From: Azotosporobacter soli
GTDB lineage: Bacteria > Bacillota > Negativicutes > SG130
Direction of reading: 5' to 3'
DNA: 64,000 bases
Assembly: GCF_030542965.1 (NCBI RefSeq)
Contig: NZ_JAUAOA010000002.1
Coordinates: forward strand, 186,001-250,000
In this document: in pieces, positions 33,961 through 46,078 of the stretch
Position numbering within the stretch: the first letter of the stretch is position 1
Layout: each line of letters starts with the position of its first letter
Notes under the pieces: generated by a model
Database searches by the model: none
Told to the model about the DNA's origin: nothing
The model's input: the letters and a program-made list of their open reading frames with translations, nothing else
Program-made: the position numbers and the translations under genes

Positions 33961-36471
<2,511 letters not shown>

Positions 36472-36631
36472 TGAAATCAGCTCCTTACTTCTGTCAGGGC
36501 TAGCTTCGACATTCTACGCCCTAATTTTAGATTTTAGCACAACCAGGGCCGTGAAGTCAAAAAAATCCAGACGATTGCTGTTCATTTTCGCTACTAAATC
36601 ATCTGTCAGATTAACCAGCACGACGGGGCTT

Positions 36632-36717
36632 TTAACACGAAGAAAGGCAAAGATAGGAAGAGTTTAAATTTATCTTTCCTCCTTCCCTTCTTCCTTTTCT
36701 TCGCATCTTCGTGTTAA
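36632..36717. repeat. Family A inverted repeat, copy A6
   Basis: TTAACACGAAGA (36632-36643) and TCTTCGTGTTAA (36706-36717), perfect 12-base arms; pyrimidine-rich CCTCCTTCCCTTC interior. It lies between the secA start and the cytochrome b terminator. The rest of 36472-36776 shows no gene. Confidence 0.88.
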
Positions 36718-36736
36718 CCGTCCCCTACATAAAAGC

Positions 36737-36764
36737 AAACCCCCTCGCCGCGGCGAGAGGGTTT
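36737..36764 (-). terminator. Terminator of the hydrogenase operon
   Basis: AAACCCCCTCGCCG and CGGCGAGAGGGTTT form a 14-bp stem with one mismatch; on the minus strand it is followed by GCTTTTATG. It lies just after the cytochrome b stop. Confidence 0.85.
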
Positions 36765-36776
36765 ATACCTAGTATG

Positions 36777-37448
36777 TTACACCGTTTTGTCTTTGGGCAC
36801 GACCTTGGTTTCCACCCAGAGCGGCGTGTGATGTTTGGCTTCCGAAAGCGACTGCGTTCCGTCGCCGAACATCGTCTTGAACTCACCCCAGTTGTAGATG
36901 CCGAGGAAGATATGCGCGAACATGAACAGTCCCAGACCGACGCCGATCCAAAGATGTCCGAGATCCAGCCAATAGATGAAGGCTTTGGGCGCGAACGGAA
37001 TGAACGCGTACAAAATCCAGCCGCTGAAGATCAGGAACAGCGCGCCCGGCAGGAGCGCCAGCGCAAACTGCTTTTGACCGGCATGCATCTTGTCGACCGG
37101 CGGCAACGGGATTTCCTTGCCGAGCAGCATTTTTTGCGGATAACCGCCGCCGACTTTCAACCAGGCAAAGTCGTTTTCTTCCCAGGTGAACGTCAAACGA
37201 ATGAACGCGATGACGCGGTCGAACGCAAAGATAAAATACAAGAGCGAAGCAATCGAAAAAATCGCTGCACCGATAATATGGATCTGCATCGCCTGATGCA
37301 CGAACTCCGAACCGCCTGGCTTAAGCCAGATGATAAATCCGGTGATCGCCGCCGGTACAAACCCCAAGACCAGACTCCAATGAAACAAACGGGAAGGCAA
37401 TGCGTGTTTTAAAACACGCGACTCATTGCTATCGTGTGTATGCATCAC
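36777..37448 (-). CDS. Cytochrome b subunit of membrane-bound hydrogenase
   Basis: 223 residues, four membrane helices (about 25-47, 65-88, 125-147 and 165-190) with histidines suited to b-haem ligation (RLFHWSLVLGF, VHQAMQIHIIGAA, FMFAHIFLGIYNW). It resembles the FdnI/HupC/b561 family that passes electrons from a periplasmic enzyme to quinone. As last gene after the two hydrogenase subunits it is the likely membrane anchor. GTG at 37448, or the ATG directly after, follows GGAGGAT. Confidence 0.85.
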   Translation of the reverse strand: MMHTHDSNESRVLKHALPSRLFHWSLVLGFVPAAITGFIIWLKPGGSEFVHQAMQIHIIGAAIFSIASLLYFIFAFDRVIAFIRLTFTWEENDFAWLKVGGGYPQKMLLGKEIPLPPVDKMHAGQKQFALALLPGALFLIFSGWILYAFIPFAPKAFIYWLDLGHLWIGVGLGLFMFAHIFLGIYNWGEFKTMFGDGTQSLSEAKHHTPLWVETKVVPKDKTV

Positions 37449-37459
37449 AAGCTATCCTC

Positions 37460-37771
37460 CTACACCAGTTTTGTCCGATTCACATAGCGGGTATGGAACA
37501 ACTCTTCCGACAAAGGACTCAACGGCTTGCCGGCAAAATTCTTATACATCTCCTGGATGGCCGGGTTATTATGGCTCTGCCGAACGGCCGCTTTCTTGTC
37601 ATCCTTATACAGACCGGCGGTCCGCATCTTGATGTATTTGGTCCGATCCTGAATCAAATCGCTGGCCACATACGCGCCGCCCCAGAGCATTGCACCGGCT
37701 ACGCCCATCACGCCGAGAAATTCACGCCGGCTGACCTTGACCGCTTTTTCAACATAATCATATCGTGCCAT
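37460..37771 (-). CDS. [FeFe]-hydrogenase small subunit with Tat signal
   Basis: 103 residues. The twin-arginine motif SRREFLGVMGVAGAM (about 14-28) is followed by a hydrophobic stretch, then the iron-hydrogenase small-subunit domain (HNNPAIQEMYKNFAGKPLS, HTRYVNRTK). As in Desulfovibrio HydB, this peptide wraps the catalytic subunit and carries the export signal for both. AGGAGG precedes the ATG; 14 bases separate it from the large-subunit stop. Confidence 0.9.
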   Translation of the reverse strand: MARYDYVEKAVKVSRREFLGVMGVAGAMLWGGAYVASDLIQDRTKYIKMRTAGLYKDDKKAAVRQSHNNPAIQEMYKNFAGKPLSPLSEELFHTRYVNRTKLV

Positions 37772-37785
37772 TATCTGACTCCTCC

Positions 37786-39042
37786 TTAACTCCAGGGCAA
37801 TAATGCCTTATATTTGTCAGTCCACGAAGTCCCCATCGGATTGATCGGCTGTCCGCCGCCGTTGACGCAACCGCCCGGACAGTTCATCACTTCAATGAAG
37901 TGATATTTTGATTTTCCGGCAACCACTTCATCGGCAACCGCCTTGATGTTTTCCTTGATGCCATGCACGACTGCCACCTGCAAAACAATCTCTTTGCCGG
38001 TTTTAGCATCTTTGATCGGCACACTGGCTTCCTTGACGCCTTGTAAACCGCGCACCGGCGTAAACTCGAGCACGCCCAGCTCCTCGCCGGAAATCACATA
38101 GTAGGCCGTCCTGAGTGCAGCCTCCATGACGCCGCCGGTGTTGCCGAAAATCGTTCCGGCGCCGCTGTACTGCGCCATCGGATTATTATCGCTGCGCTCC
38201 GACTGATTCGCCAGGTTGATGCCTTTTTGTTTCATTAGACGCGCGATATCGCGCGTGGTCAGGACGACGTCGACGTCGGGGTAATCTGCACTGCGACCCT
38301 GTTTATGCCAATATTCGGCCGCACTGTGGAATTCCGGACGCGCCGCTTCGAATTTTTTCGCGGTACAGGGCATGATCGCGACGACGAAAACTTTTTCCGG
38401 TTCCGTCTTGTACAACTCTTTCGCGGCATACGTTTTTAACAACGGTCCGTGCATCATCATCGGCGATTTGGCCGAGGAGAGATACGGCAATAATTGAGGA
38501 TAGTATAATTCCGTATAACGGATCCAAGCCGGGCAACATGAGGTAAACTGCGGCAGGGGGCCGACATGGCCTTCGCCCGTTTCACCCAAAAGGTGGTGGC
38601 GGATCCGGCCGATCAGCTCAGTGCCTTCTTCCATAATCGTCAAGTCGGCCGCATAATTGGTATCGCCGATGACAAAGCCTAACTGGTTCAAAGCACTGTA
38701 CAACTTTTCCGTTGCCAGCGTCCCCGGCGCCATGCCGAACTCTTCGGCGATCGCAACGCGGACCGCAGGCGCGATCGTTGTCACTACGGTAAACTGCTTG
38801 TCCGCGAGCTTCTGCTCGACGGCCGCTACGGGATCCACGACATCCGTCGGTGCGCCGAACGGACAATTCACCAGACACTGCCCGCAAAAAACGCATTTTT
38901 CCTTGTCGATGTGATGTACGGCACCATATTTCCCATCAATGGCATCGCTCGGACAGAATGCCTTGCAACTGTCACAACCTTTGCATTTTTTGCGATCAAT
39001 GGTGATTACCTGGGACAATTCCTGTTGCTGAAAACCTTTCAT
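37786..39042 (-). CDS. [FeFe]-hydrogenase large (catalytic) subunit, periplasmic type
   Basis: 418 residues. Two [4Fe-4S] ferredoxin motifs (CKGCDSCKAFCPSDAI and CVFCGQCLVNCPFGAP) are followed by the H-cluster domain with all three signatures: TSCCPAW (L1), MPCTAKKFEAARPEF (L2) and EVMNCPGGCVNGGGQP (L3). The size and lack of extra N-terminal Fe-S domains match the Desulfovibrio-type dimeric enzyme. No signal of its own, so it should be co-exported with the Tat-bearing small subunit. Probably oxidises H2 outside the membrane and feeds cytochrome b. HydE/F/G maturases are not in the window. Confidence 0.93.
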   Translation of the reverse strand: MKGFQQQELSQVITIDRKKCKGCDSCKAFCPSDAIDGKYGAVHHIDKEKCVFCGQCLVNCPFGAPTDVVDPVAAVEQKLADKQFTVVTTIAPAVRVAIAEEFGMAPGTLATEKLYSALNQLGFVIGDTNYAADLTIMEEGTELIGRIRHHLLGETGEGHVGPLPQFTSCCPAWIRYTELYYPQLLPYLSSAKSPMMMHGPLLKTYAAKELYKTEPEKVFVVAIMPCTAKKFEAARPEFHSAAEYWHKQGRSADYPDVDVVLTTRDIARLMKQKGINLANQSERSDNNPMAQYSGAGTIFGNTGGVMEAALRTAYYVISGEELGVLEFTPVRGLQGVKEASVPIKDAKTGKEIVLQVAVVHGIKENIKAVADEVVAGKSKYHFIEVMNCPGGCVNGGGQPINPMGTSWTDKYKALLPWS

Positions 39043-39167
39043 CCCATATCCTCCCTACACTTTCTTTACCCTATACTTTACCGCGTTTTGTGACTTAATA
39101 TTTCATTATTCGCTATTATTCGACACAATTCGCGCTTCCCCTGCTAGGTTAACGCCTAAATTTAGAT

Positions 39168-39254
39168 AAAAAAAAGCAGGGGGAACAACGGCGACAAACG
39201 CCTCGTTGCCACCCCTGCGCACATTCTCTATCTCTCACGCGCGCCCTAACGGAC
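39168..39254 (-). ncRNA. Putative small RNA or attenuator upstream of the hydrogenase operon
   Basis: From the extended -10 at 39261-39269, a transcript of about 85 nt would contain CACATT...AATGTG and GCGC...GCGC pairing options, then a strong hairpin with arms GCAGGGG (39176-39182) and CCCCTGC (39212-39218) and an inner CAACG/CGTTG stem, ending in eight T residues (39168-39175). It ends about 125 bases before the hydrogenase ATG, so it is either a free small RNA or a terminator/antiterminator control. The family is not recognised; a GGGTGGCAACG stretch is only loosely like a T-box. Confidence 0.5.
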
Positions 39255-39260
39255 AATGTG

Positions 39261-39269
39261 ATTATATCA
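39261..39269 (-). promoter_or_regulatory. Extended -10 promoter element
   Basis: Minus strand TGATATAAT, an extended -10, with an A/T-rich upstream region (39290-39360) that could act as an UP element; the -35 match (TTTAAT) is poor. Confidence 0.55.
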
Positions 39270-39415
39270 TACTTGTTTTTCACATTAAATAGGTAAACTG
39301 TATTTAAGTTTGTATTTTTTATACAAAACTAGTAAAAAAACGTTTTTTAAGTTTTTATCGGATTTGTCCTCTTTTTTTACAGTCTGCATTGCCCGTTATC
39401 TGCATCGCAGCAGAA

Positions 39416-39452
39416 GAAAAAGCGCCCTGCCGGTATTGGCTCCGGCAGGGCG
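39416..39452 (-). terminator. Terminator of hpf
   Basis: CGCCCTGCCGG (39423-39433) and CCGGCAGGGCG (39442-39452), then TTTTT on the minus strand. Confidence 0.95.
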
Positions 39453-39457
39453 TCTTA

Positions 39458-39985
39458 TTAGAATTCTGGTTCGATCAAACCGTAATGCCCGTCTTTGCGG
39501 CGATACACCACATTGACTTCTTCCGTTTCCGTATTGGTGAAAACATAGAAGTCATGGTTGATCATGTTCATTTGCAGCACCGCTTCTTCGACATACATCG
39601 GTTTCACGGCGAAGCGTTTCGTCTTGACGACTTTGGTGTCATCATCCTCTTCCTGCAGTGCGCTTTGCACCAGTTCACTCTTGAAGGTGCCGCTCTTCAT
39701 GCGTTTGGCCAATTTGGTTTTATATTTTTCAATCTGCTTTTCAATTTTTTCCACAACTTGATCAATGGATGCATACATATCAGCAGTGGCTTCTTCGCCC
39801 CGCAGAATCATTCCATTGATAGGAACAGTCAGTTCGACGATATGACGTCCCTTTTCAACCTTTAATACAGCACTCATCTCACCTATATTATCGAAATACT
39901 TGGTGACTTTACTGACACGTTTTGTTACATAATCTTTCAACGCTGGAGTGATTTCAATGTTCTTTCCTCGTACGGCAATGGTCAT
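39458..39985 (-). CDS. hpf: Long-form ribosome hibernation promoting factor
   Basis: 175 residues from the ATG at 39983-39985 (MTIAVRGKNIEITPALKDYV); the ATG three codons earlier overlaps the AAGGAG site and is unlikely. The N-terminal S30AE domain (about 1-95) binds the 30S decoding region; the C-terminal domain (about 120-175, KRFAVKPMYVEEAVLQMNM, GHYGLIEPEF) dimerises ribosomes into 100S particles. Its place near secA-prfB is normal; the hydrogenase genes intervene here. Confidence 0.95.
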   Translation of the reverse strand: MTIAVRGKNIEITPALKDYVTKRVSKVTKYFDNIGEMSAVLKVEKGRHIVELTVPINGMILRGEEATADMYASIDQVVEKIEKQIEKYKTKLAKRMKSGTFKSELVQSALQEEDDDTKVVKTKRFAVKPMYVEEAVLQMNMINHDFYVFTNTETEEVNVVYRRKDGHYGLIEPEF

Positions 39986-40198
39986 ATTGTCCATCTCCTT
40001 CCGTGTGTCTTATAAGTAATATTCGCCGCCCTGCGTTAAATTCCTGTTAAAAAAGCCAAGTTCACCATAAAAATTTCAAAATCTTTTTACAATTTCTTTT
40101 TTCAACCTTCCAAAGCCGCATTTTTAAAGGCTTTCATCGATTTTCGGCTCTTGCTATATTCGCAAACAAACATTACAGAAAGTGGAAAGTCACTGTTA

Positions 40199-40246: not shown

Positions 40247-40324
40247 AAAACGCCGCATCATGCCGCGCTGCCCGGGCCGCCGGAATCGTCTCGCTTTAAA
40301 ACGTTCTTTTATTCTTGATAACAC

Positions 40325-40354
40325 AAAACCCGGCTGCTTTTACGCAACCGGGTT
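40325..40354 (-). terminator. Terminator of the cold-shock gene
   Basis: AACCCGG (40327-40333) and CCGGGTT (40348-40354), followed by TTTTGTG on the minus strand. Confidence 0.85.
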
Positions 40355-40367
40355 GGCGATTTATGAA

Positions 40368-40565
40368 TTATGACTTATAGACGTTGGCAGCTTGCGGCCC
40401 ACGAGCGCCTTCTACAATTTCAAATTCAACTTCTTGACCTTCGGCCAAGGATTTGAATCCTTCGTCTTGAATAGCGGAGAAGTGTACGAATACGTCAGCA
40501 CCGTCTTCTCTCTCGATGAAACCAAAACCTTTTTCTGCGCTGAACCATTTTACCTTACCAATCAT
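40368..40565 (-). CDS. Cold-shock domain protein (CspA family)
   Basis: 65 residues starting [23 protein letters not shown]1 (KGFGFIE) and RNP2 (VFVHFSAI) RNA-binding motifs are intact. It is a single-stranded nucleic-acid chaperone. The ATG at 40563-40565 has AGGAGG eight bases upstream; the TTG two codons earlier would give too short a spacing. Clear promoter and terminator make it monocistronic. Confidence 0.96.
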
Positions 40566-40627
40566 GTCCAATTCCTCCTAATACATAAAAACTCTACGGC
40601 CAATCCAAAGACTGGAACCTCATGTTT

Positions 40628-40657
40628 AGTATATCATCGGCTAAATCAGACTGTCAA
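40628..40657 (-). promoter_or_regulatory. Sigma-A type promoter of the cold-shock gene
   Basis: Minus strand TTGACA (40652-40657), 18-base spacer, TATACT (40628-40633), giving a 5' leader of about 55 nt. Confidence 0.8.
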
Positions 40658-40709
40658 CGTAATGTACGGGGTCTATTCCCGCAAACCTTGTCAAACAAGG
40701 TCGAATAGT

Positions 40710-44361: not shown

Positions 44362-45138
44362 TTATGCTTGCGGCGGTTTCTTGCCGAACCATTTCAGGTA
44401 CAGCTTCTCGTATTCGCCGTTTTTCTTCAGTTCATCGAGCGCTTTGTTAATCTTCTCGGTCAGTTCCGTATTCTTCTTGCCGATCGCAATGCCGTATTCT
44501 TCCGCGCTCACTACGTCGCCGACGATCTTCGCGTCTTTCGCGCCGGTCTTAACGATGTAGTATTCATTGACCGGCAGGTCGTTGACCACCGCATCCGCAC
44601 CGCCCGCTTTCAGTTCCATGAATGCTTCGGCAGAGCTGTTAAACTCACGCACCTGTGCATTTTTGATTTTCTTTGCTTCGCTCGCGCCGGTCGTACCGAT
44701 CTGCACGGCAATCTTCTTGCCTTCCAAATCGCCGAAGCCCTTGATCGTCGCATTGTCAGCCTTGACTACCACAGCCAGGCCGGATTTATAGTACGGTTTG
44801 GAGAAATTCACTTTTTGGCTCCGCTCAGCGGTGATCGTCATGCCGGTCGCCGCAATGTCAATGTTGCCGGATTCGATGCCGGGAATGATGCCGTCAAAAT
44901 TCATGTTCTGGATCTGCACTTCGTAGCCCATCTGCTTGCCAAGCGCTTTTGCCAGGTCGATATCAAAGCCGACATATTCTTTGGTGCTTTCATCCTGGAA
45001 CTCAAACGGCGCAAACGCAGCGTCCGTTCCCACCTTCAATACTTTCGGCGCCGCCTTTTCCTGGCTGCCGCAGCCAGTCACTGCAAAGACCAGCGCCAGC
45101 ACCGCCAGCAACAAGCCTGTTTTAAATTTCTTATTCAT
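44362..45138 (-). CDS. Amino-acid ABC transporter substrate-binding lipoprotein, paralogue 3
   Basis: 258 residues from the ATG at 45136-45138 (MNKKFKTGLLLAVLALVFAV), with GGGGGA seven bases upstream. Lipobox VTGC. Same family 3 core (FAPFEFQDESTKEYVGFDID, GMTITAERSQKVNFSKPYY, VQIGTTGASEAKKIKNAQV). It differs from the others in the loops around the ligand cleft. No permease or ATPase gene is adjacent, so all three probably deliver to the one transporter at 40.7-42.1 kb. Confidence 0.93.
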   Translation of the reverse strand: MNKKFKTGLLLAVLALVFAVTGCGSQEKAAPKVLKVGTDAAFAPFEFQDESTKEYVGFDIDLAKALGKQMGYEVQIQNMNFDGIIPGIESGNIDIAATGMTITAERSQKVNFSKPYYKSGLAVVVKADNATIKGFGDLEGKKIAVQIGTTGASEAKKIKNAQVREFNSSAEAFMELKAGGADAVVNDLPVNEYYIVKTGAKDAKIVGDVVSAEEYGIAIGKKNTELTEKINKALDELKKNGEYEKLYLKWFGKKPPQA

Positions 45139-45838: not shown

Positions 45839-46078
45839 ACCCTTTTGCTTAGCCGACCTGGTCTTTGCCCCCACACTCGCCTGCTGGAAGTTTTGCTACT
45901 AGAAGTTAATCGCTCACTACTAATCCTCTCGACCATCGCCGCCCCAAGGGCGTCGTGTCCGGCAGGTCTTACCTCTAAGCCGCACCATGCTCAAAGCCGC
46001 TTTGGGCTCCTTACGTGGATCGTTTCGCCTGCGACTGGCATCGATTTTCAACCACAGACCTAAGCAATAAGGTTCTCG
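45839..46078 (-). ncRNA. Structured non-coding RNA of unrecognised class (about 240 nt)
   Basis: A strong promoter fires into a stretch with no credible ORF but many pairings. A terminal stem joins ACCTTATTGCTTAG (46060-46073) to CTAAGCAAAAGGGT (45839-45852), 13 of 14 pairs including G-U. Inside are GTGG/CCAC, CAAAGC/GCTTTG, AGGT/ACCT and CGCCC/GGGCG hairpins. I do not recognise RNase P, tmRNA, SRP, 6S or a known riboswitch core; a raiA-type RNA or a lineage-specific RNA are possibilities. It may be a free RNA or the leader of the zinc-ribbon gene, since no T-run ends it. Confidence 0.65.

Follow-up and report, generated by a model that had tools for sequence, protein, structure and literature searches.

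In the 64,000-nt stretch of Azotosporobacter soli DNA analysed here (the window), a predicted promoter followed by an intrinsic terminator lies upstream of the gene for a group A [FeFe]-hydrogenase. On a probability of slightly under 60%, this unit would be a premature terminator (attenuator) located in the 5' leader of hydA itself and acting on the hydA-hydB-cytochrome b operon. In the proposed mechanism, RNA polymerase would start near 39254 and often stop at the hairpin and U8 tract, about 87 nt after the start, and read-through transcripts alone would reach the operon, which would amount to transcription attenuation. A possible second layer would act in the read-through RNA, where the 3' arm of the terminator and its U-tract could pair with the hydA Shine-Dalgarno (SD) sequence instead of the 5' arm, so that an open terminator would go with a hidden ribosome site. 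Termination in the cell, and any regulation of it, are what we infer, and an orphan attenuator of a [FeFe]-hydrogenase operon is a plausible description of it.

Gene order and predicted promoter

On the minus strand, hpf is followed in order by its own terminator, the promoter-terminator unit, hydA, hydB and a cytochrome b561-type gene (Table 1), and hydB carries an RREFLG twin-arginine-type motif recognised by eye. The gap between hpf and hydA measures 415 nt, and 125 nt separate position 39167 from the hydA ATG at 39042, which agrees with the spacing of 125 bases given in an earlier note on this DNA. The earlier note had also described the unit itself, with its extended -10 element, its hairpin ending in U8 and its A/T-rich upstream region, and all of these were recovered. 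As a separate observation, the hydA operon is flanked by hpf and secA-prfB (window 33961-39994), which are presumably adjacent otherwise in Firmicutes; judged by eye, hpf apparently also precedes hydA in loci L103 and L129.

Table 1. Positions of the genes, promoter elements and predicted RNA features around the hydA leader
Feature	Position in window	Strand	Basis or remark
hpf	39994-39458	minus	gene upstream of hydA
Terminator of hpf	39423..39452	minus	set apart from the hydA-leader terminator
A/T-rich stretch upstream of the promoter	39270..39369	minus	composition, 78% A+T
Extended -10 element TGATATAAT	39261..39269	minus	sequence, perfect match; sole qualifying sense site in the gap; motif enriched upstream of genes
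Predicted hydA 5' leader, ~212 nt	39043..39254	minus	inferred from promoter position
Imperfect palindrome (rod), 118 nt	39137..39254	minus	z -4.9
Leader hairpin P1, 8 bp, 12-nt GA-rich loop	39217..39244	minus	folding of nascent prefixes
Alternative hairpin, weak candidate antiterminator	39190..39213	minus	prefix folding; forms before the terminator 3' arm is made
Intrinsic terminator hairpin	39176..39218	minus	folding
U8 tract of the terminator	39168..39175	minus	sequence
Terminator 3' arm and U-tract, complementary to the hydA ribosome-binding region	39164..39184	minus	duplex -24.1 kcal/mol
hydA ribosome-binding region AGGGAGGA, pairing with the terminator 3' arm in fold B	39049..39073 (ends approximate)	minus	duplex and fold calculations
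hydA, group A [FeFe]-hydrogenase large subunit, 418 aa	37786..39042	minus	TIGR02512 above cutoff, PF02906
hydB, hydrogenase small subunit	37460..37771	minus	PF02256
Cytochrome b561-type membrane subunit	36777..37448	minus	PF01292

Sigma-70-like sites were sought on the sense strand of the whole gap between hpf and hydA, requiring a match of at least 9/12 or an extended -10 with at least 5/6, and the TGATATAAT site was the only one found; no other site qualified anywhere in the gap, including the part downstream of the terminator. The -35 box of this site is poor, with 3/6 matches at a spacing of 17 nt, and the transcription start was placed 6-8 nt past the -10 element by a rule of thumb, which gives a predicted position of about 39254. 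Across the genome, the motif TGNTATAAT occurs 78 times on the forward and 80 times on the reverse strand, compared with 43 and 40 occurrences of the reversed pattern. In a genome sample of 450 kb (900,000 strand-bases) it was found 14 times, and seven of these occurrences fall within sense upstream regions, which amount to 42 kb, the hydA site being the farthest of the seven from its gene, at 218 nt. Because of this enrichment in sense upstream regions, the TGATATAAT site before hydA is probably a real promoter. Since it is the sole qualifying promoter-like sense site in the gap and lies upstream of the terminator, and since hpf has a terminator of its own, the unit most likely belongs to the hydA leader, unless hydA uses another type of promoter. 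As DNA, the promoter is also spanned by the dyad AATGTGA-N18-TCACATT, which is not significant, because 58 of 500 shuffles contained one or more 7-bp inverted repeats of this kind.

Predicted folding of the leader and pairing with the hydA ribosome-binding region

The short RNA predicted from the unit is about 87 nt long (39254-39168, minus strand) and ends in a hairpin and U8, close to the RNA of about 85 nt with a strong hairpin and eight T residues that had been proposed. The 45-nt terminator hairpin has a calculated energy of -28.1 kcal/mol, and for the whole 90-nt unit the value is -40 kcal/mol (z -3.7), a stability reached by none of 200 shuffles. A stable G+C-rich hairpin with a U-tract directly after it, as is present here, is the form of an intrinsic terminator, and its predicted place between promoter and hydA start codon is that of an attenuator. 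In the read-through RNA, the hairpin can be lengthened into the rod, in which the U-tract pairs with AGAUAGAGAA.

Folding of successively longer prefixes gave P1, the alternative hairpin and then the terminator, in that order. The GCGC/GCGC pairing of the earlier note corresponds to P1, an 8-bp hairpin that shares 2 nt with the terminator stem, and the alternative hairpin falls well short of the terminator in strength; no strong antiterminator was evident among the nascent prefixes, in which the competing hairpins are weak. The CACATT/AATGTG pairing does not hold, since CACATT (39260-39255) lies upstream of the predicted start and so outside the RNA. The suggestion of a switch-like leader therefore loses the pairing originally named for it, which is mostly untranscribed, but another mutually exclusive pairing was found, since the terminator 3' arm can pair in the full leader either with its 5' arm or with the hydA SD.

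The strong complementarity of the terminator 3' arm and U-tract to the hydA SD region is the new element of this analysis. Among 384 ribosome-binding regions from the genome sample, that of hydA forms the second-best duplex with the 3' arm, and two of the 384 (hydA counted) reach -24.1 kcal/mol or below. The full leader folds almost equally well in two ways: fold A (-66.1 kcal/mol) keeps the terminator and leaves the SD mostly free, and fold B (-66.2 kcal/mol) pairs the 3' arm and U-tract with the hydA SD and opens the terminator, with ensemble energies of -68.85 and -69.59 kcal/mol, respectively. When the upstream sequences of 383 other genes were joined in silico to the same leader head, none matched the 15.9 expected pairs between 3' arm and ribosome-binding region obtained with hydA, and 33 gave more than five; the expected terminator-stem pairs were 1.6 with the downstream sequence of hydA itself, compared with a mean of 6.7 for the others. 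These figures come from a post hoc test, in which the pairing was spotted first and tested after, and they depend on the assumed 5' end: moving it upstream by a few nt, together with a small change in the arm, lowers the expected pairs to 4.7.

Both folds look "off", fold A being terminated and fold B having its SD blocked. Kinetics should favour the terminator fold, and fold B may be rare in the cell because the terminator forms first. A double-acting switch is possible; its most developed form, in which one pyrimidine-rich leader segment would either complete the terminator or block the ribosome site, and would thus constitute a new hydrogenase-linked RNA switch gating transcription and translation in response to a redox or metabolic cue, is a speculative and rather unlikely proposal.

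Competing explanations and known systems

A scan of 450 kb of the genome found 120 terminators directed toward a downstream gene, of which 36 are separated from the upstream gene by 90 nt or more and from the next start by no more than 350 nt, and 12 of these leader-type terminators have energies of -18 kcal/mol or below. The Rfam scan covered the loci of all 12 (two are window sites, and L159 holds the site at 44779) and explains two of them as a tmRNA and a T-box, both in L163; some of the remaining strong ones may follow unannotated genes. With 12 strong examples in 450 kb, units of this kind are uncommon but not rare. At the hydA leader, the Rfam search proposed in the earlier note returned no family of Rfam 15 at its gathering threshold, and up to E 5 just GibS, STnc410 and the Rfam family P1 appeared, far below their thresholds. 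An integron attC reading was dropped after inspection by eye. Elsewhere, the window holds a raiA RNA (RF03072, 182.9 bits; 45844-46068, minus strand) upstream of a zinc-ribbon gene (45780-45433) and about 6 kb from hpf, as well as a cspA thermoregulator match (RF01766, 83.7 bits against a threshold of 78; 40324-40704, minus strand) over a cold-shock gene, and two c-di-GMP-I riboswitches are present elsewhere on the same contig (L158, 4428-4518; L161, 13838-13923).

The earlier note had left the choice between a small RNA and an attenuator undecided. A free-standing sRNA gene of about 87 nt, with a second promoter for hydA between 39167 and 39043, would have its own complete promoter and terminator, a property that does not separate it from an attenuator, and a sigma-H-like pair, GCAGGGGAA-N11-GTCGAATAA, by what we take to be the sigma-H consensus, is indeed present downstream of the terminator and before hydA. 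That pair is no evidence for a promoter, because 68 of 384 genes, hydA included, score as well, and the sigma-H candidate was rejected; no homologue of such an sRNA was found, and the region has no sigma-70-like site by the above definition. Since no other such site exists in the gap, an attenuator in the leader of hydA fits better, and the sRNA gene is judged unlikely. It is improbable that the hairpin is an insulating second terminator against read-through from hpf, combined with an accidental or weak promoter match. Strong terminators away from a preceding gene are not rare, as the 12 examples illustrate, but hpf would not need a second one because it already has its own; hydA would in addition be left with no recognisable promoter, and the strong enrichment of exact extended -10 motifs in upstream regions speaks against an accidental match.

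Two further explanations concern how a leader terminator might work or have arisen. An in-frame AUG ORF of 20 codons (39224-39162) spans the whole hairpin, and its translation could prevent termination; the ORF has neither a convincing Shine-Dalgarno sequence nor a run of a regulatory codon, there is no relative for comparison, and short ORFs are common by chance, which makes control by a leader peptide very improbable. A decayed T-box leader is hardly credible: GGGGUGGCAACGAGG in the terminator 5' arm resembles, by eye, what we take to be the T-box sequence, and this short string is the likeness to T-box leaders (RF00230), but there is no stem I, and the roughly 36 nt between predicted start and hairpin are too short for one. 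No T-box match appeared at the gathering threshold or up to E 5, whereas a genuine T-box elsewhere in the genome was detected by the RF00230 search at 123.8 bits.

Some riboswitches combine a terminator with SD sequestration, and the hydA leader resembles them in its mutually exclusive pairings, which include terminator and ribosome-binding site; it differs from them in having no recognisable aptamer, Rfam match or conservation, and in that both of its folds appear "off". Control of [FeFe]-hydrogenase genes is generally ascribed to transcription factors, also in papers on Rex, and no report of a hydA leader attenuator was found in the open literature searched. If true, a leader terminator would place a periplasmic cytochrome-linked hydrogenase under additional control at the RNA level; for now it amounts to a single, unconserved, predicted element. 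In the available text of PMC9430772, HydA2B2C2 of Sporomusa ovata is described as a periplasmic cytochrome b-linked [FeFe]-hydrogenase, a kind implicated there in the energy conservation of this organism; its operon is of the same kind, with a large subunit, a TAT-type small subunit and a b-type cytochrome, while that text does not contain the word "promoter" or mention a leader RNA. Premature termination in E. coli 5' UTRs (PMC7815308) is an example of transcription attenuators or orphan 5'-UTR terminators, and the hydA case is similar in its succession of predicted promoter, short leader, intrinsic terminator and coding region, differing in being a sequence prediction.

Comparison with relatives and other hydA upstream regions

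At E 1e-100, 51 of the 380 class genomes have a HydA match, and the matches total 58. The upstream regions of 50 of them, including that of the window's own gene, were examined, so that 49 relatives were compared; the eight left out are G275, G264, G258, G278 and the weakest four, G321, G308, G315 and G050 (52-54% identity). A contig search with HydA (loci L021-L100) was set aside, its best match having 58% identity and being more distant than the class-genome matches. The element was absent from all 49 upstream regions of relatives, none of which has a strong terminator standing away from the gene before it. Where other genomes have a strong terminator before hydA, it lies close behind the stop codon of the sense gene that comes before, and only that of the window sits apart, past the terminator of hpf. 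Weaker hairpin-T matches in several relatives were not read as leader terminators, and the alignment of nine hydA upstream regions (f23 and L131, of the same genomes) displays a conserved TTGACA promoter and a leader with no terminator. The order is represented by one genome, its own, in which the order-level search returned no homologue; the link to hydrogenase genes in relatives that had been anticipated is thus neither supported nor strictly refuted.

Homologue searches of other kinds gave similar results. BLAST over 60 class genomes returned the element itself, and the best match apart from it covers 33 bases (query 180-210, E 0.001), which is short and does not convince. DNA search and the covariance model R1 both indicated a single copy in its own genome, which is why a MITE-like repeat was ruled out. 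Over the 50 hydA loci and the window, R1 gave one weak match in another genome (L123, E 0.05), rejected as a homologue since it belongs to the gene preceding hydA there, as that gene's terminator starting about 15 nt past the stop codon, and the model R2 gave one in the same locus at E 2.3. In 379 genomes, R2 returned, besides the self match, weak matches in G008 (E 0.04) and G077 (E 0.84), neither genome being one of those listed as having a hydA match. Since a single sequence underlies both models, distant homologues could have escaped them. Plasmid and phage searches, and a single scan of viral contigs for an exact 20-mer, gave none, or short matches with E of about 0.8-0.9 among the matches listed. 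As no homologue was found in any genome searched, neither covariation nor a ligand or antiterminator could be shown.

Other motifs were observed upstream of hydA in the course of these comparisons. GTGAAA/TTTCAC occurs in several families and in the window (39286-39275), namely in nine of 18 chosen representatives against a shuffled mean of 2.7, and none of 300 shuffle sets had as many occurrences, for a motif that was picked after looking; in f23 it lies at about -180 and, reversed, at about -60. It is possibly the site of a shared regulator. By eye, a CCCCTAGGGG-type palindrome followed by GCTTGT, presumably resembling CsoR-type operators, lies roughly 95-130 nt before hydA in L139, L141 and L143-L150, and in L140 a similar palindrome is followed by TTGTGT about 150 nt before hydA.
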